Source: an uncultured Verrucomicrobiales bacterium (GTDB lineage: Bacteria > Verrucomicrobiota > Verrucomicrobiia > Verrucomicrobiales > DEV007). Taken from it: a DNA stretch of 41,991 bases. Position numbers and translations under genes: made by a program. The stretch spans positions 1 to 41,991 of the forward strand of contig CALLLI010000352.1 in assembly GCA_938082635.1 (NCBI GenBank). Reading direction: 5' to 3'. Shown here one piece after another: positions 16,358 through 33,129 of the stretch; the stretch's first letter is position 1; the number at the start of each line of letters is the position of its first letter. The notes beneath the pieces are model-generated. The model did not search any database, was not told the origin of the DNA, and was given only the letters and a program-made list of their open reading frames with translations.

Positions 16358-17110
16358 TTAGCCTTCAGCCTTTGGCTTCGGCGCATTCTCGATCACCCAC
16401 TCATCAAATTCGTCGGCCTCGATCACTGTATAAAGCGCTCGCATCGATCCATGTCCTGCTCCGCAGAGCTGGCCACAAATGATGTCCCATTCACCAGTCG
16501 TGATCGGAGTGAACCACATCGGATACTCCGTGCCGGGGATGGCATCTTGGGAGACCCGTAAAGGCACCATAGAGAGGTTGTGGATCACGTCCTTCGAAGT
16601 GATATCAATCACGACAGGACGATCCTTGGGCATCGTCAGGCTACCTACTTGGACGATGTCATCAATCCCATTGGGATCTTCGCGATCCAAACCAGCCGGA
16701 GTCGTCACATAAAGGTCCTTATCGACACGACCAAACTTACCATCAGGTCCGGGATAGTGGAAAGCCCAACCAAACTGATAGGCCACCGCACGAATACGAA
16801 CGACATCAGGACCGACGGGGAAAGCTTCCACACGTTGAGCCCAGAAAGGTAGCGCAAAACCAATCAGCAAGATCGCCTCAATGATCACGACACCCACCTC
16901 GACGTGCGTGGAGGCGTGCCCGCGGACACCCACATAATCCGCCTTGGGATTCCGCTTGTGCCAGAAGCGCCAAATGCAAAAGAAGAAGAACAAGGTCCAC
17001 CCAATGAACAAAGCCGCCATGAAGAGGTGAACGAATTCATTCAGGGCATCCACCGTCACACCATGTGCGGAGGTGACTTCGGGGAGTTCCATCCAATCGA
17101 GGAGTCTCAT
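16358..17110 (-). CDS. ctaC: Cytochrome c oxidase subunit II
   Basis: This 250-residue subunit carries the CuA electron-entry site. Two N-terminal TM helices (about 26-48 and 70-90) are followed by a periplasmic cupredoxin domain. CuA ligands are visible: His177 (VIHNLSM), Cys212 and Cys216 (CGQLCG), His220 and Met223 (GAGHGSM). The electron-entry aromatic region AYQFGWAFHYPGPDG is present. No fused cytochrome c domain follows, so this is an aa3-type rather than caa3-type subunit, and electrons must come from a separate cytochrome. The start at 17110 is chosen because longer in-frame versions (from 17194) overlap the upstream gene. It is unusual that subunit II is far downstream of subunit I, after III and IV. 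Confidence 0.94.
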   Translation of the reverse strand: MRLLDWMELPEVTSAHGVTVDALNEFVHLFMAALFIGWTLFFFFCIWRFWHKRNPKADYVGVRGHASTHVEVGVVIIEAILLIGFALPFWAQRVEAFPVGPDVVRIRAVAYQFGWAFHYPGPDGKFGRVDKDLYVTTPAGLDREDPNGIDDIVQVGSLTMPKDRPVVIDITSKDVIHNLSMVPLRVSQDAIPGTEYPMWFTPITTGEWDIICGQLCGAGHGSMRALYTVIEADEFDEWVIENAPKPKAEG

Positions 17111-17147
17111 GATAAAGTAGGTGCTAGAAAGGGTAGAGAGAAAGAGT

Positions 17148-17348
17148 TTAAGCGAGCGCTTCTTCTTGTTCGGCAGCCGCGAATGCTTTGGCACGACGAT
17201 TGATATTCACGAAGAAAGCAACCACACCGCTAAGCACCACCAACATGATGATCAACAGAGCCATGATCGCATAACCAATGGCTTCGGTCGTCTTGTGACC
17301 AGGAGCCATACAAACAGCGCAAGCGAGTGTGAAGAAGGAAAACGTCAT
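17148..17348 (-). CDS. Small single-span membrane protein in the oxidase operon
   Basis: This 66-residue protein has one strong TM helix (AIMALLIIMLVVLSGVVAFF) and a C-terminal Ala/Glu-rich tail. The N-terminal segment FSFFTLACAVCMAP is also hydrophobic and could be a signal or second helix. It fits exactly between two oxidase genes, starting 3 bases after the previous stop, so it is probably expressed. No known family is recognised. Its position suggests an accessory subunit or assembly factor of the aa3 oxidase. Confidence 0.65.
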   Translation of the reverse strand: MTFSFFTLACAVCMAPGHKTTEAIGYAIMALLIIMLVVLSGVVAFFVNINRRAKAFAAAEQEEALA

Positions 17349-17577: not shown

Positions 17578-17889
17578 TCATCTAAATCGTGTAATTGGAT
17601 CGGACTGAGCGAGCATAAAAAGCAAGAACAGCCCAGCCACAAAGAAGAACGTGAATACGAGGATACGATAGATCATCGCCTTCTCATGATTGAGATGCAT
17701 GAAGATATAAGCCACAAGGCCCGCTTTGAAGGTCGCAATCAAGAGACCAACAGCCACGTTTACCGCAAACGAGCCAAAGTCGACAAACTTGGCCACGCCA
17801 ACGGTGATGAACGTGAACGCGATCAGCGTTAGCCCCACGATAGTGTAGGTCTTGACGTGCTTTTGAATTTCTTCTGGAGAATCTGCCAT
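17578..17889 (-). CDS. Cytochrome c oxidase subunit IV family protein
   Basis: This 103-residue protein with three TM segments matches the prokaryotic COX4 family: a polar N-terminus (EEIQKHVKTYTIVGLTLIAF) precedes TM1, then FAVNVAVGLLIATFKAGLVA and the signature YIFMHLNHEKAMIYRILVFT before the last TM. This small subunit stabilises the subunit I-III core. It lies directly downstream of subunit III in the usual I-III-IV order. Confidence 0.92.
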   Translation of the reverse strand: MADSPEEIQKHVKTYTIVGLTLIAFTFITVGVAKFVDFGSFAVNVAVGLLIATFKAGLVAYIFMHLNHEKAMIYRILVFTFFFVAGLFLLFMLAQSDPITRFR

Positions 17890-17914
17890 GGGATAAAGTG
17901 ATGAAACTGCCAGC

Positions 17915-19381
17915 CTACATCAGGTAGAAGATCGGGAAGAGGAAGATCCAGACTAGGTCCACAAAGTGCCAGAACAAGCCACCGACTTCTACTCGGTTAG
18001 CCATGTGCTCTGGGCACTGGAGAAAGAGCTTCCGGCCAAAGAAGAGGAAGTAACCGAGAACGAGCATCCCGCCCACCACGTGCAGACCATGCAGACCTGT
18101 CATGGTGAAGTAAATCGCGTAGAAAGGGTTCTTTCGCGGACCGAAGTTGGAGAAGAACTCCACGTCCTCAAAAGGAATGGTCACTTTCGGATGGCCACCA
18201 TGGCTATCGGCGGTCGCTCCAGCTGCCGCATGCACTTCTTCGTCGCCATGCTCGGTGTGGTCTTCTGCGTGGAGCTTGTCTAGAAAGACACGCTCGAAGT
18301 CCATGAAGGGCTCTTCTTCAAACTCTTTGTCAGGATGCTCTGCTTTCCACTCGGCCACGTCAGCTTCGTAAGCCTCCACTTTGGGTGTGTGGTACTTTGT
18401 GAAGTCAGCAAGAAGCTTCTTTCCCTCAGTAGCATCATTGAAGTGGGTAAAGAGAGTGGAATCAGCAACGACCTTCTCTCGTGGATCGTCACGACGGAGA
18501 TAGACACGCATGTCGAGTTCATCGATCTCCAACTTCAACGTCGCATCGACCAATTTGCCTTCAAGAGTCGTGGCGAGTCCTCGCGTGAACTCAAATTTAC
18601 CGGCCTCCCAAGAAAGCGCCTTGTTGCGAGGAATGACAAACTTGCCCGGCCTGGATAGCGTTAGTTTGAGCTGACCTGCATCATCGAACGACTCGAGAAT
18701 CTTGTAATCCTCCGAAACCTTCGCTGTTAAACTCTCAGAACCTTTGGTGTCGCCCTCAGCTGCGAGGCGATCCGCTTTAGCGCGAAGCTTGATACCCTTC
18801 TTGACCTTCTCGAACCACTTGCGAGACGGATTCACCTCGGTGCCGTCGTCCGTGACGAAGCGAATGTCGCTCTCGTTCTCAAGATACTTGAGGAAATAGT
18901 GGCTCCCAGAAGCACCATCAACAATGGCATGAGAGGCTTCGAACACGAGGCCTTTCGCTTCTCCCTTTGGAACGTCATGGTCAAGGTGACCAGAGATCAC
19001 CGTCCCGTCCATCAGAGTGGCGTGGTAGTGATTGAACTTCGCGGTGTATTCGAAACTCTTGACCACCAAGAAAGTGCCCGCACTCGCGACGACCAGAAAC
19101 ATCCAGAACTGGAACCTTCGCCAATTTCGCATCTTGAGAGCGACCCACGCATAGACAACGAACACACTCGACGCGATAAGGACCAAGGTATTTACGAAGC
19201 CGAGTCCCACTTTCATTTCGTCCATCGGCCATGGATAATCAGCTCCAAGACGCAGGAAGATGTAACTCGAGAAGAGACCACCGAAGAGCATGACCTCAGA
19301 GGCGAGGAAGAGCCAGATGCCCACCTTGGCATTCCAAAGCCCGGTGTCAGGTCGGGCGGTGACGGTGTATGGGATATCCAT
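17915..19381 (-). CDS. ctaE: Cytochrome c oxidase subunit III with a large soluble insertion
   Basis: This 488-residue protein has a normal five-helix subunit III frame at its two ends: TGLWNAKVGIWLFLASEVML (about 13-32), TLVLIASSVFVVYAWVALK, and FWMFLVVASAGTFLVVKSFEY at about 92-112, then FYAIYFTMTGLHGLHVVGGM at about 420-439 and FWHFVDLVWIFLFPIFYLM at the end. Between the third and fourth helices, where homologues have a short loop, about 300 residues (119-415) are inserted. The insert is hydrophilic, rich in Lys/Glu/Asp, and ends in a His-rich stretch (HAEDHTEHGDEEVHAAAG). By normal subunit III topology it should face the periplasm. The frame is continuous, so this is not two genes. Subunit III usually has about 190-290 residues. 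Confidence 0.92.
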   Translation of the reverse strand: MDIPYTVTARPDTGLWNAKVGIWLFLASEVMLFGGLFSSYIFLRLGADYPWPMDEMKVGLGFVNTLVLIASSVFVVYAWVALKMRNWRRFQFWMFLVVASAGTFLVVKSFEYTAKFNHYHATLMDGTVISGHLDHDVPKGEAKGLVFEASHAIVDGASGSHYFLKYLENESDIRFVTDDGTEVNPSRKWFEKVKKGIKLRAKADRLAAEGDTKGSESLTAKVSEDYKILESFDDAGQLKLTLSRPGKFVIPRNKALSWEAGKFEFTRGLATTLEGKLVDATLKLEIDELDMRVYLRRDDPREKVVADSTLFTHFNDATEGKKLLADFTKYHTPKVEAYEADVAEWKAEHPDKEFEEEPFMDFERVFLDKLHAEDHTEHGDEEVHAAAGATADSHGGHPKVTIPFEDVEFFSNFGPRKNPFYAIYFTMTGLHGLHVVGGMLVLGYFLFFGRKLFLQCPEHMANRVEVGGLFWHFVDLVWIFLFPIFYLM

Positions 19382-19414: not shown

Positions 19415-21319
19415 TTAAACTTTGGCAGGCTCTTTCGCCGGCTTACCTTCCTTGTCAGGCTCAATCCACTGCGGTGAGAAATCGCGTTCCTCACCTGGCA
19501 CGCTGTACTCGTAAGGGCCTTTGTCAGCGATAACCTCAAACGTGAAGTTTCCATGCGGAGGCGGAGTCGGCGTCGCCCACTCGAGTGTAGTTGCTCCCCA
19601 AGGGTTGTCGTTGGTGATCTTCTTACCGAAGATGAGCGATCCAAAGAAGTTGATGATGAACGGAATCTGCGCCACGGCCAACATCAACGCTCCATAGGTC
19701 ATAAGAACGTTGAGATCTCGGAGAGTGATCACGTCGCCCTTCGCAAAGAGGTTCGAGAAGAAACTTCCCGCCTCGAAGAGCGTCTTCTCGGTCGTGAGAG
19801 GGAATGATAAACCACCATCATACCAGCGGCGGTGGAAACCAGCGACACCCTGCACCATCATCGGCGCGAAGAGTACATTCATGGCGATCAGTGATGGCCA
19901 GAAGTGGAGATGGGCGAGGACTCCATTCATCATCCGACCCGTCCAGTTTGGGTACCAATGATAGATCCCTGCGAAGAGACCAAAGATGACGCCTGGCGCG
20001 ACCACATAGTGGAAGTGCCCAATCACGTAGTAGGTGTCGTGCAAGTGCAAGTCGACAAGGTTGAAGGCCAGAGGCAACCCAGTCAGACCACCAATACCAA
20101 ACATCGGTAAGAAGGCCGTGGCCCATAGCATAGGCGGGGTGAAGCGAATAGAACCGCCCCACAAAGAAATCAGCAAGCAGGTCAGGAGAATGACCGAGGG
20201 AATCGAAATGAGCACGGTCGTGGTTTGGAAAAACGCACTGACCCAAGCACCCATTCCCGTCATGTACATGTGGTGAGCCCAGACAATGAAGCTTAAGAAA
20301 CCTAGAACAAGCACCCCGTAGACCATGGACCGGTATCCCCAGAGTGGTTTGCGGGTATTGGCAGGAATGACCTCAGCCACAATCGCGATGGCAGGTAGAA
20401 GAAGGACGTAGACCTCAGGGTGACCGAGGAACCAGAAGAGATGCTGATAGAGGAGAGGACTTCCACCGCCAGAAACGTCGAAGCGGGCACCATTCACGAC
20501 AAGACCTTCAGGCACAAAGAAACTGGTGAAGGCCAATCGGTCCATCAACTGCATGATCGCAGCCACCTCGAGAGGGGGGAAAGCGAGGAGGAGGAGGAAA
20601 CCCGTCACCATCATTGCCCAGACAAAGAACGGCAGGCGCATCCAGGTAAGGCCCTTGGCTCGCAAGTTGATGATCGTTGCGACGAAGTTCACCGCACCGA
20701 GAAGAGAAGAGGTGATGATGAAGACCATGGCCGACAACCACATGGTCTGACCAGTCCAGAAAACGTTCGGATAATCTAGCTGAGCAATGGTCGCGAGAGG
20801 CGAATAATTTGTCCACCCAACCTGAGCGGCACCCGACGGCATGAAGAAACTGCCGAGCATCATGAGACCACCGATAAAGAAACACCAGAAACTGGCCATG
20901 TTCAGTCGAGGGAAGGCCATGTCAATCGCTCCAATCTGCAGCGGCGTGACATAATTACCAAAGGCGGCAAAGCCTAACGGAACGATCCCAAGGAAGACCA
21001 TGATCGTACCGTGCATGGCGCCAAACATGTTATACAACGACCCGTCCATCACCCCGTCGGACACGAAACGATCAACGAGGAACAAACGGAGGAACCAAGG
21101 CAATTGCTCACCTGGATAGGCGATGCTCCAACGCATGCAGAGCATCAGATAGAATCCAAACGCCAAGAAAAAGAGCGCCGTGAATCCATACTGAAGCCCG
21201 ATCATCTTGTGATCGGTGGAGAAGACATACTTCTTCCAAAACGGATCCTCGTGATGACCGTGATCATCATCATGAGCGTGATCAGCTAAGTGCGGATCTG
21301 CAGTAGTAGCGGTTGCCAT
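19415..21319 (-). CDS. ctaD: Cytochrome c oxidase subunit I (aa3-type)
   Basis: This 634-residue haem-copper oxidase core subunit holds the low-spin haem and the haem-CuB oxygen-reduction site. The low-spin haem His is in MFGAMHGTIMVF. The CuB and cross-linked Tyr region is FWFLGHPEVYVLLLPA, so the GHPEV glutamate of A1-type enzymes is present. The other two CuB His are in VWAHHMYMTGM. The helix X haem ligands are in YYVIGHFHYVVAPG. A His-rich N-terminus (DHAHDDDHGHHEDP) precedes the first helix, and a C-terminal tail ends Lys/Glu-rich. All ligands are intact, unlike the CcoN-like protein upstream, so this is the functional oxygen reductase of the cluster. Confidence 0.97.
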   Translation of the reverse strand: MATATTADPHLADHAHDDDHGHHEDPFWKKYVFSTDHKMIGLQYGFTALFFLAFGFYLMLCMRWSIAYPGEQLPWFLRLFLVDRFVSDGVMDGSLYNMFGAMHGTIMVFLGIVPLGFAAFGNYVTPLQIGAIDMAFPRLNMASFWCFFIGGLMMLGSFFMPSGAAQVGWTNYSPLATIAQLDYPNVFWTGQTMWLSAMVFIITSSLLGAVNFVATIINLRAKGLTWMRLPFFVWAMMVTGFLLLLAFPPLEVAAIMQLMDRLAFTSFFVPEGLVVNGARFDVSGGGSPLLYQHLFWFLGHPEVYVLLLPAIAIVAEVIPANTRKPLWGYRSMVYGVLVLGFLSFIVWAHHMYMTGMGAWVSAFFQTTTVLISIPSVILLTCLLISLWGGSIRFTPPMLWATAFLPMFGIGGLTGLPLAFNLVDLHLHDTYYVIGHFHYVVAPGVIFGLFAGIYHWYPNWTGRMMNGVLAHLHFWPSLIAMNVLFAPMMVQGVAGFHRRWYDGGLSFPLTTEKTLFEAGSFFSNLFAKGDVITLRDLNVLMTYGALMLAVAQIPFIINFFGSLIFGKKITNDNPWGATTLEWATPTPPPHGNFTFEVIADKGPYEYSVPGEERDFSPQWIEPDKEGKPAKEPAKV

Positions 21320-21360: not shown

Positions 21361-22104
21361 CTACTCGGCAGCCATAGGCTCCATCGTCTCAGGATCAATC
21401 TTGGGTCCTTCGAGGTTCTTATTGAACCCTTCGAGGTCAGAAACTTTCAAGCCAGGGATGTCGTGAGTAGCACGGGCCTTCTTCACCATCTCTTCAGTCA
21501 CGATGCCATTGTCGCCTTCCTTGAGCAGTTTGTCGTTGCCCCAAGATGTGCGAATGTAAGTCATCAGCTGAGCCATTTTCTTGTCGCTGAGCGCGTCTTT
21601 CCAAGGAGTCATGACACTGTTGTAAGACTTGCCAGCTACCGTGATGGGACCTTGCATCCCGTTCAGGATAGTCATGGCAAGACGCTCGCTTCCTTCATAA
21701 ACATACTCAGAATTGGCAAGTGGCGGGTAGAGTCCCGCTTGGCCAATACCCGAGGTCTGGTGACACGCGGCACAGATGGCGCTGTAGTGGTTCTTGCCCT
21801 CTTTCACCCACTTAGCAAAGGGAGGCAGCACCTCTTTCGGGCCAGAGGATGGTGCTTCCTTCACTGTGTAATCCTCAACGAAAGTGAAACCGTCGTTGGA
21901 ATAACCACCGTTGGTCGCTCCAAGGTAGCCCGCGCCAACAAACACAGCAATACCTGCAACCAAGAATCCCCACAAAGACACAGGCTCATTGCCAACTTTA
22001 GGATCGGGCTTCTCGCGCGCAGCTGCTGCTGCATGCTCGCTGACGACGCTGACCTTCTCGTCGTAATCGCTGTGGGTAGAATCGTTAGGATCTGAGGCGC
22101 TCAT
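21361..22104 (-). CDS. Membrane-anchored monohaem cytochrome c (CcoP-like)
   Basis: This 247-residue protein has a cytoplasmic N-terminus, one TM helix (about 43-62, SLWGFLVAGIAVFVGAGYLG) and a periplasmic class I cytochrome c domain with CAACH at 111-115 and a likely axial Met165 (SVMTPW). The arrangement resembles CcoP/FixP but with one haem domain instead of two. Its start overlaps the stop of the CcoO-like gene by one base, so the two are tightly coupled. It lies just before subunit I and is the best candidate for the direct electron donor to CuA of the aa3 oxidase, since subunit II has no haem c. Confidence 0.85.
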   Translation of the reverse strand: MSASDPNDSTHSDYDEKVSVVSEHAAAAAREKPDPKVGNEPVSLWGFLVAGIAVFVGAGYLGATNGGYSNDGFTFVEDYTVKEAPSSGPKEVLPPFAKWVKEGKNHYSAICAACHQTSGIGQAGLYPPLANSEYVYEGSERLAMTILNGMQGPITVAGKSYNSVMTPWKDALSDKKMAQLMTYIRTSWGNDKLLKEGDNGIVTEEMVKKARATHDIPGLKVSDLEGFNKNLEGPKIDPETMEPMAAE

Positions 22105-22838
22105 TAGGACTGGGGAACGGCATCATCACCAGCTGCCGTAGCTGCCGTGCCTTTACCGCTCAGGCTTTTAGGAACTAGATGATCTTTTCTCAAAGACTTC
22201 AGGTAAGAAACCAAGGCGTCCGCACGTGGAGTCGGCACCACTTCGTAACCCTCTTTCGGAGCGAACTCGCCTTCCAATGGAAGGGCCTTTGAACCTGCGC
22301 CAGAACCTTTGCGCTGAACGCGGTAAAGGTTCTTGTAACCTGGCATATTGGAGCGGCCGTTCAAACTGCGAGGACTGTAAAGAGATTGATGAATCTGTGT
22401 CTCACTAAGGTTACGCCAGCCGAAGTTACTTAGGTCAGGTCCCGTGCGCTGAATTCCAAGATGAGCGACGGTTTCTTCGAGATAATCCTCAGGACGCAGG
22501 GTGCGGATCGGCGCGGGCTTTCCTTCGTCACCTTCCCAATCAAGACCGCGGCCATTCCACTCGTCGCGCCAGAGATCGGTGCCGAGTTGATCTGAAGGGC
22601 GGACCATCTGCGTGTGGCAATAGGCGCAACCTTCTGCCGTATAAATCGCATGCCCATTGGCAACGCGACCGGCACCACCGGGAGGATACGAACTGCCATC
22701 GGCAAGCTCGAGCTCGTCTTCGCTATAAGGAGTCGCCGCGAGATCCTTGAAGCTCATGTGAGGCATCAAGATCAACGCGAACCATGGCAACCCGAAGGTG
22801 ATGGCAAGTAGGATGATGAAAGAACGGATCTGAGTCAT
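22104..22838 (-). CDS. ccoO: CcoO-like cytochrome c (cbb3 subunit II family)
   Basis: This 244-residue protein has an N-terminal TM anchor (FIILLAITFGLPWFALILM) and a periplasmic monohaem cytochrome c domain of the CcoO/FixO family. GHAIYTAEGCAYCHTQMVRP carries the haem at 71-75. RTGPDLSNFGWRN and the axial-ligand region GRSNMPGYKNLY (Met165) align with canonical CcoO. The C-terminal tail is Ala/Gly-rich and lacks similarity. In true cbb3 oxidases CcoO passes electrons to CcoN, but the partner CcoN here lacks its catalytic site, so this subunit probably serves another electron route. Confidence 0.88.
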   Translation of the reverse strand: MTQIRSFIILLAITFGLPWFALILMPHMSFKDLAATPYSEDELELADGSSYPPGGAGRVANGHAIYTAEGCAYCHTQMVRPSDQLGTDLWRDEWNGRGLDWEGDEGKPAPIRTLRPEDYLEETVAHLGIQRTGPDLSNFGWRNLSETQIHQSLYSPRSLNGRSNMPGYKNLYRVQRKGSGAGSKALPLEGEFAPKEGYEVVPTPRADALVSYLKSLRKDHLVPKSLSGKGTAATAAGDDAVPQS

Positions 22839-22842
22839 GCTA

Positions 22843-24321
22843 CTAGGCTTGAGCTTGCGCAGGGTTCATCTCCTTGGCGGCTTTCTCTGGATGAATGTAA
22901 GTGGCTTGGCCACTCCGACGTCCGAGACGGCAGATCATCAAGAGGATGTGGAAGAAGAACATGAGGTTAGAAAGAATGATGAACACCCAGGCAATGGAAC
23001 GGCCGACGAGGAAACCCTGAGCGACTTCCCAGCTGAGAACGTGTTCGGCTTCATAAGCCATCGCTTGCTGCCCTTGAAAGAGACCACCCATGAGCAAGCA
23101 GAGCAGCATGGCCGATGTGCCATAGGCAGAGAACCAGAAGTGGAAACGAATCCATTTGCCAGAGCGCCACTCACAGCCCATCAAGCGCGGCATGATAAAA
23201 TAGATCGCACCGAACATGACCATGGTGAAGAAGCCATAGAGAGCGGTCATCTGAGCACCGAGTTCTCCATGAGAGAATTGGAAGATTTTCCCGAATCTAA
23301 AGAGAGAGAAAGCCGCGCCTAACAAGATGTAAACAGCGAAAGCAATCGCGCCAAAGAAGACGAAGCGGAGCGTGGGACTGTAGTTCACCAAATCGATACT
23401 GCCCTTCATCGTTCGGTAGTGATTGATCCCGATAAAGACCATGGGAACGATCATAAAGATCATCGCCGCACCACTCACGGCTGGCATCCACGCAGGAAGC
23501 GGACCGCCCATGTAGTGCTGCACGCCGACCCAACCGCCTAGAAGCGCGAGACTCCAGAAACTAGCAAGTGCCAACTGGTAGCTGTGAATCGGCCGGCCAA
23601 CGACCTTAGGGATGAGATAGTAAGTCACACCCAGGCCAATTGGAACGACCCAAAGCATGAGTAGTGTTCCACTATACCAGCTACCAATCGCCGCATTAAT
23701 AACCGCAGCGCTCGGGAAGTGATGAATGAGAAGATTCGATGTGAGATAGATCCAAGGGAACCAGAAGCAGGCGGCTAGGATATACCACTGAGAAATGAAC
23801 ACGTGGCCGTCGCGACGCGCTTTAAACATCATCACCAAATAGCCAGCGATGATGCAGTAGGCGACAAACATAAGAACCCAAACGCCTTTGGGGAAATCAA
23901 GGAACAGCATCGAGGTGCCGTGGCCGAGCAGAATACCCGTCACACCAACGGTGACGCCGACATTCCAAAGAATCCCGGCGACGATCAAGATCGCGATGCG
24001 CGGCAGGGAAATGCGGCAAAGTCGGCCCATGATCCAAAGAGCCGTGCCCAGTCCAACCTGAAAAACCCAGCCATACATGAATGCATTCAAGTGAGCTGGC
24101 TGCAGACGGCCATAGGTCATGAATGGCAAGGAAGCGAGAATGTCAGGGCTGTGGAGTTTGACCGAAGCGGCCAAACCAAGTGCCAGGGAAACGAAAAGCC
24201 ACGCCAAGCCGCTGATGAAGAAGAAGAGGACGGGAATCCGCAGCGAACGGTCAATCGCCACACGTTGTTGCGCGTCTTCCTCCGGCGTTGCCGTCGTCAC
24301 GATGTTAGATTGAGTCGCCAT
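22843..24321 (-). CDS. ccoN: CcoN-like membrane protein without CuB and haem b3 ligands
   Basis: This 492-residue, roughly 12-helix protein is clearly homologous to cbb3 oxidase subunit I: RLQPAHLNAFMYGW matches the helix II low-spin haem site (His77 kept), and YYLIPKVVGRP and FGAIYFIMPRLMG match conserved CcoN stretches. The catalytic residues are missing. In gapless motif comparison with canonical CcoN, the CuB His of WYGHN is Gly218 (WYSGT), the PHH pair is VQH (Gln268, His269), and the helix X GHVHSG is GAQMTA (Ala356, Met358). It should therefore not reduce oxygen. It may hold one haem or act as a membrane scaffold for the CcoO-like cytochrome. It starts 13 bases after the 135-residue membrane protein gene. 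Confidence 0.88.
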   Translation of the reverse strand: MATQSNIVTTATPEEDAQQRVAIDRSLRIPVLFFFISGLAWLFVSLALGLAASVKLHSPDILASLPFMTYGRLQPAHLNAFMYGWVFQVGLGTALWIMGRLCRISLPRIAILIVAGILWNVGVTVGVTGILLGHGTSMLFLDFPKGVWVLMFVAYCIIAGYLVMMFKARRDGHVFISQWYILAACFWFPWIYLTSNLLIHHFPSAAVINAAIGSWYSGTLLMLWVVPIGLGVTYYLIPKVVGRPIHSYQLALASFWSLALLGGWVGVQHYMGGPLPAWMPAVSGAAMIFMIVPMVFIGINHYRTMKGSIDLVNYSPTLRFVFFGAIAFAVYILLGAAFSLFRFGKIFQFSHGELGAQMTALYGFFTMVMFGAIYFIMPRLMGCEWRSGKWIRFHFWFSAYGTSAMLLCLLMGGLFQGQQAMAYEAEHVLSWEVAQGFLVGRSIAWVFIILSNLMFFFHILLMICRLGRRSGQATYIHPEKAAKEMNPAQAQA

Positions 24322-24334
24322 TGAAAGGGGTCCG

Positions 24335-24742
24335 TTACTTCTGAGCTGGGGCTGCGTCCGCTTCAGGTTTGGCCGTCTCGGCAGGAAACGCCATGGCTGC
24401 TGCTGCTGCTTCCGCTGCCTTCGTGCCAGGAACCGGCACGGCCGATTTCTGCGCTTTAGATAGTTTGTTCGTCATAGAAGAAAGGGCCACGGAGGCGGGC
24501 ACTTCGATCGTGCCGTCGTCGTTCTTCTTCCAAGTGTTTACCAATTCTGATTGAGCAGCCAAAGAGGCGGTGTCCAGCTCCGTCCGGCGAGCATCATCGA
24601 GATTCGGCTTGGCGTTCGACATCAACATGGCTTCAAAGGCCACGAATAACAGCACTAGAATGCCGAATAAAGCAAAAGTCAGGATAGCTCCCCAGAAACT
24701 GAAGAAGCGGTTGAGTGGTGTGTCACCAGAATGCGTTTCCAT
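24335..24742 (-). CDS. Small membrane protein between actF and the CcoN-like gene
   Basis: This 135-residue protein has one N-terminal TM helix (SFWGAILTFALFGILVLLFVAF is the core region, about 14-35), a charged middle and an Ala/Pro/Lys-rich C-terminus. The middle piece TWKKNDDGTIEVPASVAL recalls a short conserved motif of small respiratory-chain proteins in related bacteria, where a Trp, an acidic turn and a Val/Ile-Pro step are followed by Ala. That likeness is from memory and weak. It lies 14 bases from both neighbours, so it is part of the operon, probably as an accessory subunit of complex III or of the CcoNO-like module. Confidence 0.7.
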   Translation of the reverse strand: METHSGDTPLNRFFSFWGAILTFALFGILVLLFVAFEAMLMSNAKPNLDDARRTELDTASLAAQSELVNTWKKNDDGTIEVPASVALSSMTNKLSKAQKSAVPVPGTKAAEAAAAAMAFPAETAKPEADAAPAQK

Positions 24743-24756
24743 AGTCTCGATCCGGT

Positions 24757-26133
24757 TTAGTTAGCGAGGTTCACGGATTCATGCAGTCGAGGGTCGCGGC
24801 AAGGATAGAGGCGACGCTTCGAGAGCATGCCTAAGAAATACCAGACGACCAGGCCACCCACAGTCACGAAGGCAAGGATATCGAGGAGGAAGGCACCACT
24901 ATAAGATGGATTCGTCGCTGCCATCATTTCTTCATTCGATGCTAGAGAGATAAAGCGCTCCGGCATGATGATCAGGTAGTAGTCGAGGACGTGTGCGCAG
25001 AGATTCCAAACACACGCCATGGCGACATACTTGGTGCTCCTCTTCACCCATGCAGGGAGAAGGAAGAGGAACGGAATCACAAAGTGCACCCACATGAGAG
25101 CCGAGCTTCCGATGTGCCAGTTGCCCGTGTTTCTCGTGATAAAGAACTTCGTCTCTTCAGGAATATTGGCATACCAGATGAGGAAATACTGAGAGAACGT
25201 GACGTAGGCCCAGAAGATCACAAAGGCGAACATCAGTTTACCCATGACGTGCAAGTGCTCGTCATTGACCAACTTAAGATAACCCAAACGCTTGAGGAAG
25301 AGCACTAACAAGATAGACACTGCCATCGAGTTCAACGCGGAACCAGCGAAGACATACACGCCCCACATGGTGGAGAACCAGGCGAAATCGAGGCACTTCA
25401 GGTAATCAATCGCAGCAAACGAAGCCGCCACAGCGAACACAGGCAGGAAACCACAAGCAGCGCGTCGCATGCGATAGGTCCATTTGTGATTGCCATCTTC
25501 ATCCTGACGCGCAGACAAGGAACGCATCCACAGCGCAATCAAGCTCAGGGCGAGGAAGTATCCAAATGCCCGGAGGTAGAAGAAGGTTTTATTGAGATAA
25601 GGATATTTGTGATAGAGCAGGTAAAGATGCGGATCCTCTTGAGCCTTCACGTGAACCGCATGGCGGAGACTGTGATCCTCGGCCCCTTGATCCATCGTTG
25701 CACCCGCACCCGCAGCCGCTTCCACAGCGTTGTCGGCGTGCATCTCAAGCTCAATCTCAGTCAGATGCTTCGACCATTCGTAAAGATAGTCGCGAAGATT
25801 CGGAATGAGCAAGGGAATGGCTAACAAAGCCATGAACGGAATCACACAGGCGATATTCTCAAAGATCCGCCGAACCGCAATTCCCCAACCCGAGTTGGTT
25901 GCGTGATGCAGAAGCATCCAGAACATCCCGCCTAGAGCGAGACTGAAGAAGTAGTAGAAACCGAAGAGCCAGGAGTAGATGAACTTCTCGGCCAGTGGCG
26001 AGAAGAAGAGGATCCCGGAAGCAATCAGTCCGATGAAACCGATCGCAAAGGCCACTTTGCGGATGGGTGCAAGTTTACTGGCATCCAGGCGCTCGCCATC
26101 GGGTGGCAAGTCGATATGGGAATGGGCACTCAT
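24757..26133 (-). CDS. actF: Alternative complex III subunit ActF
   Basis: This 458-residue membrane protein with about ten TM helices matches ActF, one of the two quinol-side integral subunits (ActC and ActF) of alternative complex III. GFYYFFSLALGGMFWMLLHH, AIDYLKCLDFAWFSTMWGVY and FWAYVTFSQYFLIWYANIPE are typical family segments. A hydrophilic stretch with several His and acidic residues at about 125-175 separates the third and fourth helices. It is fifth downstream of actA, in the usual A-B-C-D-E-F order. Confidence 0.93.
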   Translation of the reverse strand: MSAHSHIDLPPDGERLDASKLAPIRKVAFAIGFIGLIASGILFFSPLAEKFIYSWLFGFYYFFSLALGGMFWMLLHHATNSGWGIAVRRIFENIACVIPFMALLAIPLLIPNLRDYLYEWSKHLTEIELEMHADNAVEAAAGAGATMDQGAEDHSLRHAVHVKAQEDPHLYLLYHKYPYLNKTFFYLRAFGYFLALSLIALWMRSLSARQDEDGNHKWTYRMRRAACGFLPVFAVAASFAAIDYLKCLDFAWFSTMWGVYVFAGSALNSMAVSILLVLFLKRLGYLKLVNDEHLHVMGKLMFAFVIFWAYVTFSQYFLIWYANIPEETKFFITRNTGNWHIGSSALMWVHFVIPFLFLLPAWVKRSTKYVAMACVWNLCAHVLDYYLIIMPERFISLASNEEMMAATNPSYSGAFLLDILAFVTVGGLVVWYFLGMLSKRRLYPCRDPRLHESVNLAN

Positions 26134-26163: not shown

Positions 26164-26856
26164 TTACTCTGCCGCTGGCTTCGCCTCCCCCTGGGCTTCA
26201 TCAAACGCTCTCTGAACTTCAGCTGCAGGCATCGACTTGCGTTGCTGCAATGTGCGCACATAGGCCACGATCGACCAGCGATCTTTCAGAGTTAGATTGG
26301 CACCGTAGGCGCCCATGAGGCCTTTGCCGTTCACAACGACATCGTAGATGTTTCCGTCAGGACGTTGCGCGAGATCCGCCACAGGCGCGATAATAAGATT
26401 GGTAGGAAGAATACCGTATTTGCTGATGACCCCAGCGCCGTTGCCAGACTCACCATGGCAAATGGCGCAGTAGATTCCGAACTTCTCTTGGCCTTGCTCT
26501 AAAAAGCCGGCATCCACCGTGATCTCTTCCGGCATACCATGCCCGTAATATTCACCAATCTTACCCGTGTTCAGGTAGTCATTCGCGAAAGCATAACCAT
26601 CGAGGTTGGCCTTACCGCCAGCAGATGCAGCCACAGCCGGCACTTCCCATCCCATGGGGATCGTTCCAGCCACAGGCAGTTGAGCCGCTTGGCCGTTGCC
26701 GAAGAAGTCACTCGTGGACTGCGCATTCGACTTGCCCTGCATGTCCATGTCATTGAAGATCTGGATCGGCGACCGCGCTGTTTTAGAACCCCGAAAGCCA
26801 GCGACGCTGACGACGAGAGCAATGAGGAGAAGGTAGCCTAGAATGAAATATCTCAT
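26164..26856 (-). CDS. actE: Alternative complex III cytochrome subunit ActE
   Basis: This protein of 230 residues starts at the ATG at 26856 (MRYFILGYLLLIALVVSVAG). A longer in-frame version would overlap actD. One N-terminal hydrophobic segment is followed by PMGWEVPA-type linker sequence and a monohaem cytochrome c domain with GIYCAICHGESGNG and distal GLMGAYGANLTLKDRWSIVA, which supplies the likely axial Met. ActE accepts electrons from ActA/B and may pass them to the oxidase. The anchor lacks the lipobox Cys described for some ActE proteins, so attachment may be by an uncleaved helix. Confidence 0.9.
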   Translation of the reverse strand: MRYFILGYLLLIALVVSVAGFRGSKTARSPIQIFNDMDMQGKSNAQSTSDFFGNGQAAQLPVAGTIPMGWEVPAVAASAGGKANLDGYAFANDYLNTGKIGEYYGHGMPEEITVDAGFLEQGQEKFGIYCAICHGESGNGAGVISKYGILPTNLIIAPVADLAQRPDGNIYDVVVNGKGLMGAYGANLTLKDRWSIVAYVRTLQQRKSMPAAEVQRAFDEAQGEAKPAAE

Positions 26857-26863
26857 CGTGGGG

Positions 26864-27406
26864 TTAGGCAGGGCCTTGCTCTTCGACCAGTTCAATGTTA
26901 GTTGCGCCGAGCTCCTCGAGGAAGACACGTGTCTTCTCGCGGTCAAACTTCTCGTCTCGACGCTCTACCGTAAGGAAGAAACCGTCGTCTGAGAACTTCT
27001 TGAAGTTCCGCGAGGTGAAAAGTGGGTGATTCAAGCGAGGTAATCCCATCAGAGCAAGACAGCCGAAGAGCGTCGTGAACGCCGCGAACAGAATAGTCAG
27101 CTCGAAGATCACAGGGAAGAACGCCGGAATAGTGTAAATGTTTGTCGGCTTGGCTTGAACGATCGTCGGGTAAAGAGCGACCTGGGTGAAATACTGGAGA
27201 GTGAAGCCGGTCAAGGTACCAGTGGCACCACCAAAGAAGACGAACCAAGGCAGAATGGAGCGCTTCAAGCCCATCGCTTCATTCATCCCGTGGATCGGGA
27301 ATGGCGAATGCACATCCCACTTACGAAAGCCCGCATCACGAACTTTCTCTGCAGCCGAATAAAGGGCCGCTGTCGAGGGAAACTCACAAAGATAACCGTA
27401 TATCAT
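26864..27406 (-). CDS. actD: Alternative complex III subunit ActD (DUF3341)
   Basis: This 180-residue protein matches DUF3341/ActD, a small membrane subunit of alternative complex III. The N-terminal soluble part MIYGYLCEFPSTAALYSAAE and KWDVHSPFPIHGMNEAMGLK are family hallmarks. Two TM hairpin helices follow (WFVFFGGATGTLTGFTLQYF and PVIFELTILFAAFTTLFGCL), and the C-terminal part (GFFLTVERRDEKFD, FLEELGATNIELVEE) is ferredoxin-like in pattern. Gaps to actC and actE are 17 and 7 bases. Confidence 0.94.
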   Translation of the reverse strand: MIYGYLCEFPSTAALYSAAEKVRDAGFRKWDVHSPFPIHGMNEAMGLKRSILPWFVFFGGATGTLTGFTLQYFTQVALYPTIVQAKPTNIYTIPAFFPVIFELTILFAAFTTLFGCLALMGLPRLNHPLFTSRNFKKFSDDGFFLTVERRDEKFDREKTRVFLEELGATNIELVEEQGPA

Positions 27407-27423
27407 GGTCGCTTGGAAAGTGG

Positions 27424-28863
27424 TCAGGCTTTCGCTTCCTCCGGTTGAGATCCAGCCCCGTCAGGGTCGGGCTCATTATAGTGAGGATCTGACTGCGGCA
27501 GAATGCCCTTCACCTCCGACATGGCAATGACAGGAAAAAAACGAATGAAGAGTAAAAAGAGAGCGAGGAACATTCCGAACGTTCCCAAGAAGGTGATCTG
27601 TTCAACCCAAGTTGGGTGATACATGTCCCAAGCACCTGGCATCCAGTCTTGAGCAATGGAAGTGACAAAGATCACGAAGCGCTCGAACCACATGCCGATG
27701 TTCACAAACATGCAGACGACCATGACCACCACGATGTTGTATCGAGCCCGCTTGAACCAAAAGACCTGGGGAGCGATCACGTTACAGAACATCATCACCC
27801 AGTAGGCCCAGTAATAGTAGCCGCTGAACATCCGATTCTCGAAAGCAGCGATCTCATACTTATTCCCGCCATACCAGGCGATGAACAGCTCCATGAGGTA
27901 AGCATAACCAACGATCGTTCCGGTAAAGCAGATGATCTTCGCCATGTTATCAATGTGCTTCGGCGTGATCAGATCATACAAGTTGTAGATCCGGCGAGCC
28001 GGAATCATCAGGGTCAATACCATAGCGAATCCACCGAAGATCGCACCAGCCACAAAGTAAGGCGGGAAGATCGTGGTGTGCCAGCCAGGCACGGTCGATG
28101 TGGCGAAGTCAAAGGAGACGATCGAGTGCACAGAAAGCACGAGCGGCGTCGAAAGAGCAGCCAACAAAAGGTAGGCCATCTCGTAGTGATTCCAGTGACG
28201 GTTACTTCCGCGCCACCCAAGAGCAAAGATACCGTAGCAAAACTGCTTAATCTTGTTCGTCGCACGATCACGAAGAGTCGCGAGGTCAGGGACAAGACCG
28301 AGATACCAGAAGATCACAGACACCGTGAAGTAGGTGGAGACCGCAAAAACGTCCCACAACAACGCCGATTTAAAGTTCTGCCAAATGCCGTTCGCGTTTG
28401 GAACTGGCGCTAGGAACCACACCATCCAGATACGACCCACGTGCACCGCCGGAAAGATACCGGCGCACATCACCGCAAACAGGGTCATGGCCTCGGCCGC
28501 TCGGTTGATCGAGGTCCGCCATTTCTGTCTTGTGAGGAAGAGAATCGCAGAAATCAGGGTTCCCGCGTGTCCGATACCAATCCAAAAGACGAAATTCGTA
28601 ATGGCCCAACCCCAACCGACAGGGTGGTTGTTTCCCCACACACCCACACCGGTGGAAATGAGGATAATCAAACCAATAGGCACGAGCGTCGCAATAAGCG
28701 CCGCAGGAATAAACATGAGCCACCAAAGAAGCGGCTGAGGCTCTTCAACGACCCCACAGATCCGCTCAGTGATCCAGTTATAGGAGCGCTTGTTTAGCAC
28801 AAGCTTCTCACGCTCCATAGGAGCGGAGGCCGTACTCTCAGCGGTTGTTGTTCCGTTAGCCAT
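27424..28863 (-). CDS. actC: Alternative complex III subunit ActC (NrfD-like)
   Basis: This 479-residue membrane protein of the NrfD/PsrC family has about ten TM helices and forms the quinol-binding subunit of alternative complex III. Typical family segments include [55 protein letters not shown]-like [20 protein letters not shown], and [17 protein letters not shown]. The loop His and Asp residues near helix 2 and helix 6 are those usually linked to quinol oxidation. It lies between the iron-sulfur subunit gene actB and actD in canonical order. Confidence 0.95.
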
Positions 28864-28886
28864 ACTAGGTTCTCAGCGATCCAGGA

Positions 28887-31800
28887 TCAATGAATGTGCT
28901 TGGATGTCGTGCCGACTTCTACGCCGCCTGGCATCTTTAAATTCGGGTTCTTAATCCGCGCGAGATAAGACGTACGCGGCCGGGTGTTCACATACTTCAA
29001 AAGATCGTAGCTGCGAGGAGATTCCTTAAAGCGATTCACGGTGTCCTCATCGTTATTGAGATTGCCAAACTGAATGGCCTCGACCGGGCAAGCCTCCTGA
29101 CAAGCCGTCTTCACCGCATTCGCAGCTACTTTAATCTTATCAGAATCTCGAGCTTCCACCTTCTTGGCAATCTTGGCAGCCTGGAGGCGCTGCACACAGT
29201 AGGTGCACTTCTCCATCACTCCACGCATGCGAACAGTGACATTCGGATTCTTCTGCAAGTCGCCAATGCCCCCATCATGCGTCTCACCGAAGGGACCCGC
29301 ATAAAGGTTATTGAACTCCAAGCCAGGAACCTTCTTCGTGACGAGCGGGTTGCGCTTGTTGTAGTCAAAGAAATTGAAACGCCGCGCTTTGTAAGGGCAG
29401 TTGTTCGCGCAGTAACGGGTGCCGATACAACGATTGTAGGCCATCACGTTGAGACCATCATCGCTGTGGACCGTCGCATTGACCGGACAAACGGCCTCGC
29501 AAGGAGCAGCCTCACATTGCTGACAAGCAACTGGCTGCGGCAAGATCTCTAACGCATCCTCATTGAGAATCTCCACACCACGGCTCTCGGTATCAGAGTG
29601 TTGATGATTCGTCGGATCAGACTCCATCACGATAGTTGGATCGGTGAAGTAACGATCCATCCGGATCCAGGCCATTTCACGACCACGCAAGACCTGATCC
29701 TTACCCACAATCGGGATATTATTCTCGGCCTGACAAGCCACCTGACAGGACGTGCAGCCCAGGCAGGTATTGAGGTCGATCGTCATCGCCCACTGGTGAT
29801 TCGGATCGAGCTCGTTGAACGGCACTGAACCCGTGCTCGAGCGACCCTGAGGCTTATAGATGTGCTGATTTGGTGGGATGTGCGAATCCATCCCGATGGT
29901 CTGAGCAAACTCTGGCTCCTTGCGGTAGGCCTCAAGACCACCATCACGGACCAGTCCGCGACCTTCCATGCTGTTGTGCTCTTGCGTCAGAGCAAGCTCT
30001 GACCACTTCTCTATCACCACCTTGCCATCTTTGGGAGCATGATTAGCGAGCGGCAAGCCAGGCCTCACCTCTTCATCAGACGTCAGAATTTCCAACGTCG
30101 CCCCGCTTGCCACGTAGGGTGACACGGAAGTGCGCATGCGGAAGGCATCGAAACCCGTTCCGTAACCCACACGACCACACACTTGCTGACCGTAACCCAC
30201 TGACAAGGTGACACAATTATCGGCGTGACCAGGAGCTTGCAGCACCGGAAAGAAACCTTCACGGCCATTGAAAGCCAGCTTCACACGCTGGCCATCCTCT
30301 TTCAAACCCAGCTCATTGAACGTCTTCACGCTCATGAGTGCGGCATTATCCCAAGTCAGCTTTGTGATAGGATCAGGTGCTTCCTGCAGCCAGCCATTGT
30401 TGATGTAGCGGCCATCGTAAACTCGATTATCAGGCACGAAACGAACCTCAAGCGCGTCGATCCCAGAAGGACCGGCAACAACATCAGGGGAAGTCGCTTT
30501 GGCGCCACTGACGGTCACGGCCGGGTAGGCTGAGCTGGCCAAGAATCCATCGCGCAACGCGTGATTCCATGCAGTCTCTTTATCACCAGAAATAGTGAGC
30601 GTGTTCAGGAAGGTATCCCTGACCGCCTCGTAATCAGCGCCAGGAGTCACCTCCATTGCTCCCGCAATGACATCCTCAGAAACAGGAGCAGCCTCTTCTG
30701 TCAGGGGAGCCTCTTGGAGAAGCTTGAGAAACAAGTTCACCTCAGAAACACCACCAACCAACGGATTCACCATCGGCTGAATCACCGAGTAAGTTCCATC
30801 AGCCGCACGCGCATCACCCCACTCCTCAAGGAAATGTGTACCTGGCACATGCCAGTCCGCCAAAACTGCCGTATGATTGCGATTGAAACCTAACTGAATG
30901 TAAGTCGTCTTCTCGACGATCTTTTCCCAAGCATAGTCGTTAGGCGCATCGTAAACAGGATCGGCAGGCGTCGTGCTGATCACGGTCGTGACAGCACCAG
31001 ACTCCACTGCCTCACGCAAATCCGCCAGACCACCAAAGGTACGCTCGTTTGATTGCACCACCGAGATGGTTTTACCATACGCGCCGAGCTTCTCATTGAT
31101 CGCGGCAACCAAAGCATGAACTTCGGCAGGCTGTTGTGGGCCTGCTAGAACGATTGATTTGCCAGCCGCTGCCAACAAATCATCCACGGCAGGCTTGACC
31201 CAGGCAGCGATACGCTCATCGACCTCAGCAGTGACACCAGCGACACCAAGTTGCTGAGCAACAGCTGCAGCCACACGCACTACCTGACTCGCAGCCACAC
31301 GCAAACGGTGATCGGCCACGCTGCCCGTCACAGTAAAGGCTGGCTCCACCACATAAAGACGATTCATCTCGTCCGAGGTGCGCTGTTGCCACTCACCATT
31401 CGCCAAGCGATCCGCCCGGCGACTAGAAGAGAACCCAAGAGCAACATTACCAACTGAATCGAGCCCCAAGAAATTTGAATCCAAGGACAGCACCCGCGTC
31501 GCCTGCTCAAGGCGAGGCAATAAGGAAAGATCATCACGCCCAAAGGCCGCCCTCACCCCGGCGCGCACCTTGTCGTTATTGAAAGCCTCATAGCGGAACA
31601 ACTTCGCCTGAGGAAACTTCACTGAAATCTCGCTAAGCAAGCGATCACGCGTTGGCGAAACACCTTCACCCACCAACAGCGCTAAGCCCTTACCCTGAGC
31701 AGCCGCCAAATCTGTGCGCAGCGTTTCTAGACCAGCATGTAACGCCTCTTTTGTAGAAACTTGCCCCTTGGCAAGAACCTCTCGAGAACGATCCGGATCA

Positions 31801-32273: not shown

Positions 32274-32299
32274 TCGTGGATCAGATCAGCCTAAAAACG

Positions 32300-33121
32300 T
32301 TAGCGATGACAGGCTGAACAGCTCAGCGGTGGGTTTACATTCCAGGCCTCTTTCAGCTGCAGCCCAACCTCTTCTTGGGTCATTTCACCCTTGCCAAAGA
32401 CTTGTTCAGACAGGCGAACGAGATCCTCGGTGCCCAGCTCACCCCGATTCTCCATCGGGCGCAATTTTTGGTCCGACTCGATGACCGAAATCAGCTGGTC
32501 AACCGTCTTCCCATTCTTCTCCATGATCTCGCCGTAGAACTCTACGCGATTCTCATCAGAAGCTTTCCAATCGAAATTCAGCAGCTCATCCACAGGACGA
32601 AGATTCTTCTCAGGCGCCTTGTGGCAGTCGAGACACCAACTCATGCTCTGCGGCTGATCTTGGTAGACCACGTCCATCTGGTCCACACGGCCGTGACACT
32701 TCACACAGCTCACCCCGCGATTCACGTGCACGGAGTGGTTAAAATAAGCGTAATCAGGCACTTCGTGGACGTTCACCCACTCGATCGGCTCGCCTGCCTT
32801 CCAGCTCTCACGCACAGGAGCCAGTTTAGGGCTATCCTTCTTAATGTGACTGTGGCAGTTCATGCAGGTCGCCGTTGAAGGCAAATTCGAATGCCCTGAT
32901 TTCTCGACGAAACTATGGCAGTAGCGGCAATCCATCCCGTGCTGCTCCACGTGAATCTTGTGGCTGAAAGGAACGGGCTGAGCGGGCTGGTAACCGACAC
33001 GCGTATACTTCGGAGTGAAGTAATACCAAAGACCTGCCGTCACGGCAGACCCCATCATAATCAGCGCGATGCCGATCTGAATGGGCAACAAATTTGTCCA
33101 GCGCGGAAAGAAGTTGGGCAT
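32300..33121 (-). CDS. actA: Alternative complex III pentahaem cytochrome ActA
   Basis: This 273-residue protein has one N-terminal TM anchor (LLPIQIGIALIMMGSAVTAG) and five CxxCH haem-binding motifs: CRYCH, CMNCH, CVKCH, CLDCH and CSACH, the last three residues from the end. That number and spacing match ActA of alternative complex III. It likely passes electrons from the ActB iron-sulfur chain to ActE or to the downstream cytochromes. The ATG at 33121 is preferred over the TTG at 33127, because AGGAG lies 10 bases upstream of the ATG. It is the first gene of the respiratory cluster, with a palindrome just upstream. Confidence 0.95.
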   Translation of the reverse strand: MPNFFPRWTNLLPIQIGIALIMMGSAVTAGLWYYFTPKYTRVGYQPAQPVPFSHKIHVEQHGMDCRYCHSFVEKSGHSNLPSTATCMNCHSHIKKDSPKLAPVRESWKAGEPIEWVNVHEVPDYAYFNHSVHVNRGVSCVKCHGRVDQMDVVYQDQPQSMSWCLDCHKAPEKNLRPVDELLNFDWKASDENRVEFYGEIMEKNGKTVDQLISVIESDQKLRPMENRGELGTEDLVRLSEQVFGKGEMTQEEVGLQLKEAWNVNPPLSCSACHR

Positions 33122-33129
33122 GGTCAAAG

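Follow-up and report, generated by a model that had tools for sequence, protein, structure and literature searches.

A cbb3-derived module with a dead oxidase core beside ACIII in Verrucomicrobiia, a probable cytochrome c relay

A four-gene module between ACIII and an aa3 oxidase

The window, a stretch of 41,991 nucleotides from an uncultured Verrucomicrobiales bacterium (GCA_938082635.1, contig CALLLI010000352.1), carries a complete set of genes for alternative complex III (ACIII), namely ActA (five haems c), ActB, ActC, ActD, ActE and ActF. Downstream of it, four open, consecutive and co-oriented genes occupy 21361-24742 on the minus strand, between ActF and CtaD of an aa3 oxidase. Reading frames and profile matches bear out the earlier note, which had placed a small membrane protein, CcoN-like and CcoO-like proteins and a single-haem CcoP-like protein here. 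The features of the locus are as follows.

26864..33127, minus strand: ActD, ActC, ActB and ActA of ACIII; ActA with five CxxCH motifs and no sixth haem
26164..26946, minus strand: ActE, mono-haem cytochrome of ACIII; start codon uncertain, overlaps ActD
24757..26133, minus strand: ActF of ACIII, directly upstream of the module; assigned by length, position and conserved Act order
24335..24742, minus strand: small protein of 135 aa between ActF and NcoN; one transmembrane helix, tail probably periplasmic
22843..24321, minus strand: NcoN, CcoN homologue of 492 aa (Pfam COX1, solved CcoN chains, AlphaFold, Foldseek)
22104..22838, minus strand: NcoO, CcoO homologue of 244 aa (FixO/CcoO match); one transmembrane helix, one c-type haem motif
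21361..22104, minus strand: NcoP, membrane-anchored mono-haem cytochrome c of 247 aa, in the CcoP position
19415..21319, minus strand: CtaD, catalytic subunit I of aa3 (Pfam COX1, 2.4e-125; TIGR02891, 2.6e-161, below the curated cut-off)
17578..19381, minus strand: CtaE (488 aa, long charged insertion) and CtaF of aa3 (reading frames and profile matches)
16358..17194, minus strand: CtaC, CuA subunit II without a haem c domain (Pfam COX2, TIGR02866)

NcoN matched Pfam COX1 (COX1/CcoN) at 2e-39 and solved CcoN chains at 1e-28. Its AlphaFold model (pLDDT 90.9, pTM 0.92) found cbb3 CcoN chains as best Foldseek matches, with TM-scores of 0.84-0.89, and NcoN is predicted to retain the fold of cbb3 CcoN, a C-family member of the haem-copper oxidase superfamily. 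The haem c motif of NcoO is CAYCH (71-75), with Met 165 lying within NMPGY, while NcoP has a single cytochrome c domain with CAACH (111-115) and a likely Met 165. Among solved structures, NcoP comes closest to mono-haem cytochromes and to the cytochrome domain of copper nitrite reductase, and CcoP matches more weakly. No CcoQ was found. The small one-helix protein gave no family match in the profile search, and no Pfam or NCBIfam family matched ActF.

Loss of the oxidase site and retention of the cytochromes

Residue by residue, the ligand positions of the window NcoN confirm the non-catalytic core that had been claimed for it. The CuB positions read G218, Q268 and H269, so that one of three histidines is kept; G262 stands at the position of the active-site Tyr, and A356 where the proximal His of haem b3 is expected. 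Of the haem b positions, H77 is kept and the second is M358 instead of His. Ligation of haem b by this His/Met pair was considered and rejected, since neither position is conserved in the window's order: many relatives have Phe in place of H77, the TM2 His, and position 358 is highly variable among them. Among relatives, no other set of metal ligands has been conserved instead, and the haem b3, CuB and Tyr residues are replaced differently in other lineages than in the window.

Across the class Verrucomicrobiia, we found 11 ACIII-linked loci with the full ligand set HHYHHHH and about 118 loci without an active site; both forms occur in Opitutales-like genomes. Because intact ACIII-linked relatives exist, the module derives from a cbb3 oxidase, as the earlier note had supposed. 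A single ancient loss of the active site was rejected (AU test, p-AU 0.0003), and the trees place the number of losses of the dioxygen site at three at least. The note was also right that the CcoP equivalent has one CxxCH; this is no sign of decay, however, because the NcoP-type single haem is common to intact ACIII-linked oxidases too. The cytochrome motifs have persisted in the dead loci. CxxCH is retained in NcoO in 101/101 cases and in NcoP in 94 of 97, and the three exceptions probably go back to one frameshifted contig, which was seen twice, and to a truncated ORF. Dead NcoN itself has a dN/dS of 0.03-0.15 and is under purifying selection.

The distribution of CcoS, on which haem b, b3 and CuB of CcoN reportedly depend (PMC8267372), follows that of the active site. 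Its gene lies just upstream of NcoN in 12/12 intact modules (the 11 ACIII-linked ones and the unlinked L030), and no full-length CcoS was present in the roughly 118 dead loci. FixS was found neither upstream of the window NcoN, where the local test is clear, nor in the window genome (assembly 88.65% complete), where the test is weak, as FixS was also missed in some genomes with canonical CcoN-CcoO fusions. Together, the loci form a graded series from a working oxidase, through a form in which, for the most part, just the haem b ligands survive, in places with ccoS fossils, to a fully dead scaffold, and this series makes the handover of electrons from ACIII to an oxidase testable in cultured Verrucomicrobia.

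These data bear on two readings in which NcoN would still be an enzyme. An ordinary working cbb3 oxidase is what the literature names beside ACIII in verrucomicrobial methanotrophs (PMC8498564, PMC6688271, PMC11102522), and cbb3 CcoN does give the best sequence and fold matches to NcoN. Yet all haem b3, CuB and Tyr site residues of the window protein except one CuB His are replaced and an intact CcoS is missing, which refutes this reading at the sequence level and leaves it next to no credence. It is also very improbable, if less so, that NcoN carries out chemistry of its own with electrons from NcoO/NcoP, either binding a cofactor otherwise, such as one haem b, or transferring protons. Such a function would suit a Chthoniobacterales-like clade in which most proteins keep both haem b His although all dioxygen-site residues are gone, and in which four loci hold a ccoS remnant without a transmembrane helix; in the window, H77 is present and M358 would be a possible second ligand. 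Against it stand the variability of both positions within the order, the lack of conserved replacement ligands and the absence of intact CcoS.

ACIII as constant partner and the haems of the cluster

The order ActF-NcoN-NcoO-NcoP recurs in almost all related genomes examined across the class, so that within Verrucomicrobiia the neighbourhood check proposed in the earlier note comes out in favour; the arrangement is not due to chance. By our count, NcoN is present in about 69 of the 71 class genomes that encode ActC, and in one contig scan the best 80 matches listed were all Verrucomicrobiota by title. The small one-helix protein occupies the same position whether the module is intact or dead. 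In six loci (L019, L022, L038, L046, L052, L077) an azurin/plastocyanin-type cupredoxin is joined to its C-terminus, and in three (L029, L120, L137) a mono-haem cytochrome c; in L201, ActF and NcoN are separated by a NosZ gene.

As the earlier note had said, the module lies between ACIII and aa3 in the window, but its constant partner is ACIII rather than the oxidase. Opitutales-like genomes carry a dead module by ACIII with no aa3 nearby, and several of them encode a caa3 elsewhere in the genome. Since this unlinked caa3 carries a haem c of its own, delivery to CuA is no general rule. Akkermansia-like genomes encode NcoN-NcoO-NcoP as one polypeptide after ActF and have no haem-copper oxidase at all. 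Gene order and this fusion suggest that NcoNOP may be bound subunits of ACIII.

For the linked aa3, the accounting of haems is simple. The window CtaC contains no CxxCH and is therefore not classed as caa3, in agreement with the earlier note, and haem c was found in 0/62 of the CtaC proteins that are linked to ACIII-NcoN and have a CuA motif. In the 45 dead loci with complete data, ActA carries five haems; it reads four in two further loci, both from one poor contig. In known systems the extra haem sits on ActA (Flavobacterium) or on CtaC (Rhodothermus) (PMC8552683), and outside the class 5/5 ACIII-linked clusters without the module have haem c on CtaC. With CtaC free of haem c and ActA limited to five haems, a cluster with linked aa3 encodes no bridging haems other than those of NcoO and NcoP. 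The earlier note's argument that some cytochrome must bridge ActE to CuA is not absolute, however: in the methanotroph genome G063, ACIII and CtaE-CtaF-CtaC are present, the module is gone from the cluster and CtaC has no haem c, so the relay is not universally needed.

Proposed role and relation to known systems

We consider it probable that the module is a former cbb3-type oxidase of ACIII, catalytically dead, that has been kept as a membrane anchor for a cytochrome c relay. NcoN, its metal centres lost, would remain as a membrane scaffold that keeps the small one-helix protein and both cytochromes, NcoO and NcoP, in place at ActF. Electrons in the window would run from menaquinol via ActB/ActA (and ActE) to haems presumably attached to NcoP and NcoO, and from there to CuA in the neighbouring aa3; relatives would use this platform to supply other acceptors. 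The electron relay raised in the earlier note fits the decay of the oxidase site with retention of the c-haem motifs, the haem-c-less CtaC and the missing sixth ActA haem; the role itself we infer. In a cbb3 oxidase, haem b of CcoN receives its electrons from the CcoO haem. An NcoN without haem b would close this route, and an exit from NcoO to CuA is putative. Transfer may instead proceed directly from ActA or ActE, or through a soluble cytochrome.

Two further readings grant the module a role in assembly or in other pathways. That NcoNOP mainly joins ACIII and aa3 as an assembly or stability platform, its haems not obligatory in electron flow, would agree with an NcoN devoid of any complete cofactor site and with the position between both complexes in the operon. 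We regard this as unlikely, because both cytochromes keep their CxxCH in nearly all dead loci while the NcoN ligands decayed repeatedly, electron carriers have been fused onto the small subunit, and Akkermansia-like genomes retain the module although they have no haem-copper oxidase for it to assemble. The latter genomes, the NosZ gene of L201 and the unlinked caa3 of Opitutales-like genomes would suit a module that feeds other acceptors, either soluble or in the membrane (periplasmic cytochromes, N2O reductase, peroxidases), with the linked aa3 reduced directly by ActA/ActE. We consider this very improbable, as in Verrucomicrobiales aa3 comes directly next in the operon, CtaC lacks haem c, ActA has five haems and no other bridge is encoded in the cluster.

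An enzyme that resembles an oxidase, and has been annotated as one, thus most likely acts as a wire and docking platform for the quinol-oxidising complex next to it. More tentatively, and at somewhat under even chances, subunit I, largely or wholly stripped of its metals at least three times, would now be a permanent structural subunit of ACIII in Verrucomicrobiia; with its two cytochromes, it would form an electron distribution hub serving aa3, N2O reductase or other acceptors by lineage, working even in Akkermansia-like bacteria without a haem-copper oxidase.

Annotation of haem-copper oxidases rests on homology to subunit I, and given so widespread a dead branch, predictions of oxygen affinity made in this way will therefore go wrong. 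The high O2 affinity of verrucomicrobial methanotrophs, for instance, has been connected with a cbb3 oxidase next to ACIII (PMC6688271); the 'cbb3 oxidase' reported at this place in these bacteria appears to be the dead NcoN protein. The open-access literature searched, to which Refojo et al. 2010 did not belong, yielded no described inactive CcoN or haem-copper pseudo-enzyme beside ACIII.

Compared with the cbb3 (C-family) oxidase CcoNOQP, the module shares fold and gene order (CcoN, CcoO, then a CcoP-like cytochrome), and its mono-haem NcoO has the haem c motif GCxxCHTQMVRP and the NMPxY of CcoO. It differs in that the window has neither a dioxygen site nor a complete haem b site nor an intact CcoS, in its single-haem rather than di-haem P subunit and in its constant ACIII neighbourhood. 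For verrucomicrobial methanotrophs and Opitutaceae, a C-type oxidase beside ACIII in the same gene neighbourhood has been described as a working cbb3 (Refojo et al. 2010, cited in PMC8498564); in the methanotroph genomes that we examined, by contrast, the CcoN homologue next to ACIII is dead and its dioxygen site gone. In Rhodobacter bc1-cbb3 supercomplexes, a tethered cytochrome (membrane-anchored cytochrome cy/CcoP) likewise bridges complexes III and IV (PMC7876108), but there cbb3 itself is the terminal oxidase, whereas the window combines an inactive core with a separate aa3. The supercomplexes of ACIII (ActABCDEF) with aa3 in Flavobacterium johnsoniae or caa3 in Rhodothermus marinus resemble the window in having ACIII genes followed by an A-family oxidase and in passing menaquinol electrons to it. 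Their link is a sixth ActA haem or a haem c on subunit II (PMC8552683); the window has neither, and a cbb3-derived two-cytochrome module lies between the complexes, which, if the relay is true, would be a third solution beside these two.

The NcoN core and its gene cluster

The module of the window consists of NcoN and NcoO, the homologues of CcoN and CcoO, and NcoP, a mono-haem cytochrome in the CcoP position. It is embedded in a cluster with alternative complex III (ACIII, ActA-F) in the following gene order:

Window, minus strand: ActA-ActB-ActC-ActD-ActE-ActF, a 135-aa one-helix protein (the small protein), NcoN, NcoO, NcoP, CtaD-CtaE-CtaF onward
Window, minus strand, after CtaF: 96-aa ORF, CtaC, CtaB, two Sco-like proteins, DUF420-like protein

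Pfam, NCBIfam and PDB searches each matched NcoN of the window to CcoN, and its AlphaFold model (pLDDT 90.9, pTM 0.92) retrieved cbb3 CcoN chains as top Foldseek matches (TM-score 0.84-0.89, ~20% identity). The earlier note had regarded this core as non-catalytic, and the ligand columns bear this out. The haem b histidine columns of cbb3 are occupied by H77 and M358, the CuB histidine columns by G218, Q268 and H269, the active-site tyrosine column by G262 and the haem b3 histidine column by A356; only H77 and H269 match cbb3. Judged by these residues, NcoN is a CcoN of the cbb3 type that has no functional centre. The window's own genome (6.3 Mb, 88.65% complete) encodes two COX1-family proteins only, CtaD and NcoN.

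At 488 aa, CtaE of the window (17915-19381) exceeds its methanotroph orthologues (~263 aa), and a long charged stretch is inserted between its matched COX3 parts. The first Sco-like protein (14663-15340) contains the copper-binding CPAGC; copper binding has probably been lost in the second (13965-14666), because Ser-Pro-Ala-Gly-Ser replaces this motif. Immediately beyond the respiratory cluster, downstream on the same strand (11086-13274), lie one protein judged by eye to be ketoacyl-synthase-like and one acyltransferase-like.

Distribution and repeated loss of the active site

The placement of the module between ACIII and the oxidase, first noticed in the window, is conserved among relatives. 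ActF was found upstream of NcoN in 19/20 fully read loci and CtaD downstream in 18/20; one of the two loci without CtaD ends at a contig edge, and the other, L030, has no ACIII link. Wherever the contig extends, the order was also kept in the best 80 further loci (80 database records), except for some soil and Chthoniobacterales-like loci without CtaD nearby (order labels of relatives, namely Opitutales, Chthoniobacterales and Methylacidiphilales, derive from neighbours, pmoA or sequence placement). The constant neighbour of the module is ACIII. NcoN was matched in 51 of 57 related genomes, the six without a match all belonging to genus group g19, and, by our own count within a sample of 387 genomes of the phylum, in about 69 of the 71 ActC-matching genomes of the class when the window's order is left out.

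We refer to NcoN as intact when all seven ligand residues are present (HHYHHHH; haem b, CuB, Tyr, CuB, CuB, haem b3, haem b), as dead when the dioxygen site is lost and as half-dead when mostly haem b ligands alone remain. The full set occurs in 11 ACIII-linked loci (L072, L122, L123, L128, L129, L140, L142, L143, L146, L147 and L155) and in the unlinked L030. The intact NcoN of genome G057 (99% complete) is a real oxidase, since no second COX1-family protein is encoded there. Locus L072, with intact NcoN and CtaD-CtaE-CtaF-CtaC downstream, would represent the intermediate expected before loss of function.

A tree of 80 NcoN proteins, built after the ligand columns had been taken out, requires three or more switches between intact and non-intact states, as does a careful tree of 48 proteins. 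Dead L124 is the sister of intact L123 (support 100/92), and the dead Opitutales-like group stands apart from the large group containing the window. Most Chthoniobacterales-like NcoN proteins have lost the dioxygen site and kept both haem b histidines (HNAQRYH and similar). A single clade of all non-intact NcoN was rejected by the AU test on the 48-protein tree (p 0.0003).

A FixS/CcoS search gave matches immediately before intact NcoN genes. With a profile of five such matches, CcoS was detected upstream of NcoN in 12/12 intact modules, and only four weak matches appeared in ~118 dead or half-dead loci. These four are short upstream ORFs (L101, L107, L065, L106) that keep the tail IFDxxEPIGxxTD without the TM helix, and they belong to a Chthoniobacterales-like clade in which NcoN mostly retains haem b ligands alone. 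CcoS is necessary for haem b, b3 and CuB of CcoN according to a 2000 study, as cited in a passage of PMC8267372; because full-length CcoS is missing from dead loci, the ligands are lost hand in hand with the site-filling factor. We relied on local co-occurrence only, because some genomes that encode a canonical CcoN-CcoO fusion likewise gave no FixS match.

Retained haem motifs and the proposed relay

Dead modules keep their cytochromes: CxxCH was present in NcoO of 101/101 and in NcoP of 94/97 dead loci, counts that are not independent because some loci represent one genome fetched twice. The three NcoP proteins without the motif look like assembly errors or truncation. Pairwise dN/dS of dead NcoN was 0.03-0.15, similar to neighbouring genes, with dS >1 in some pairs; between the window and a congener dN was 0.036 with dS saturated. 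Exclusively in dead modules, the small protein carries a fused plastocyanin/azurin-type cupredoxin (L019, L022, L038, L046, L052, L077) or mono-haem cytochrome c (L029, L120, L137). NcoO of L074, L104 and other Chthoniobacterales-like loci has a long Pro/Ala-rich insertion within the cytochrome domain.

Five haems on ActA and none on CtaC is the pattern of the 45 dead loci for which data are complete, and likewise of the window; ActA reads four in two further loci, both on a single contig rich in frame breaks. Because of this, NcoO and NcoP carry the only encoded cluster haems beyond ActA/ActE, an accounting that, short of proof, favours a relay. We infer that NcoN most likely anchors NcoO and NcoP on ACIII in a complex, and that in the window their haems would most likely pass electrons from ActA/ActE to CuA of aa3. 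Outside the class, ACIII clusters without NcoN carry a haem c motif on CtaC in 5/5 cases with a readable CtaC.

The earlier note proposed that the module may relay electrons from ActE to CuA, and CtaC of the window is indeed without haem c. However, in G063, a genome of the methanotroph family (L180, L192), the small protein and then CtaE-CtaF-CtaC come after ACIII, again with haem-c-less CtaC, and its ACIII cluster contains no NcoNOP module, CtaD lying alone on a separate contig. G063 is a counter-example to the relay mechanism.

Other acceptors and known systems

Outside the window's lineage, the NcoO/NcoP haems would most likely deliver electrons to other acceptors. Several Opitutales-like genomes have a dead module beside ACIII and a caa3, itself bearing haem c, at another place. 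A search of three g19 (Akkermansia-like) genomes for COX1-family proteins found none. In g19, ActB is at a separate locus from ActC-D-E-F, which is followed by a single polypeptide with two CxxCH that joins NcoO and NcoP to a degraded NcoN (hhalign probability 96-98%):

L188:9629-11944: fused NcoN-NcoO-NcoP polypeptide
L194:1348-3786: fused NcoN-NcoO-NcoP polypeptide
L195:11496-13829: fused NcoN-NcoO-NcoP polypeptide

Verrucomicrobial methanotrophs are stated to have a cbb3 oxidase beside ACIII (PMC8498564, PMC6688271, PMC11102522), and a cbb3-type oxidase is also listed for them in PMC10205796. In five pmoA-positive genomes the NcoN ligands read SESSHFV or ADAAHQT, one CuB histidine being the sole active-site residue in place. 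By its ligands, the gene reported as a cbb3 oxidase beside ACIII appears to be a dead NcoN in the methanotroph genomes examined. Besides NcoN, the COX1 proteins of methanotroph genome G092 comprise two aa3, two ~565-aa proteins resembling ba3 and one NorB-like protein; full reading covered the NorB-like protein and one of the ba3-like pair. In pmoA-positive genome G121 (locus L201), a nitrous oxide reductase cluster is inserted between ActF and NcoN:

L201:8554-10533: NosZ, clade II, Sec type (TIGR04246, 3e-288), with accessory-like genes alongside

This insertion resembles the nos cluster of Methylacidiphilum caldifontis IT6, which is reported to lie within the ACIII genes next to those for aa3 and cbb3 (PMC11102522). 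In known ACIII-oxidase pairs, the extra haem is carried either by ActA as its sixth (F. johnsoniae) or by subunit II as a haem c (R. marinus; PMC8552683), whereas the window combines a five-haem ActA with a CtaC without haem c.
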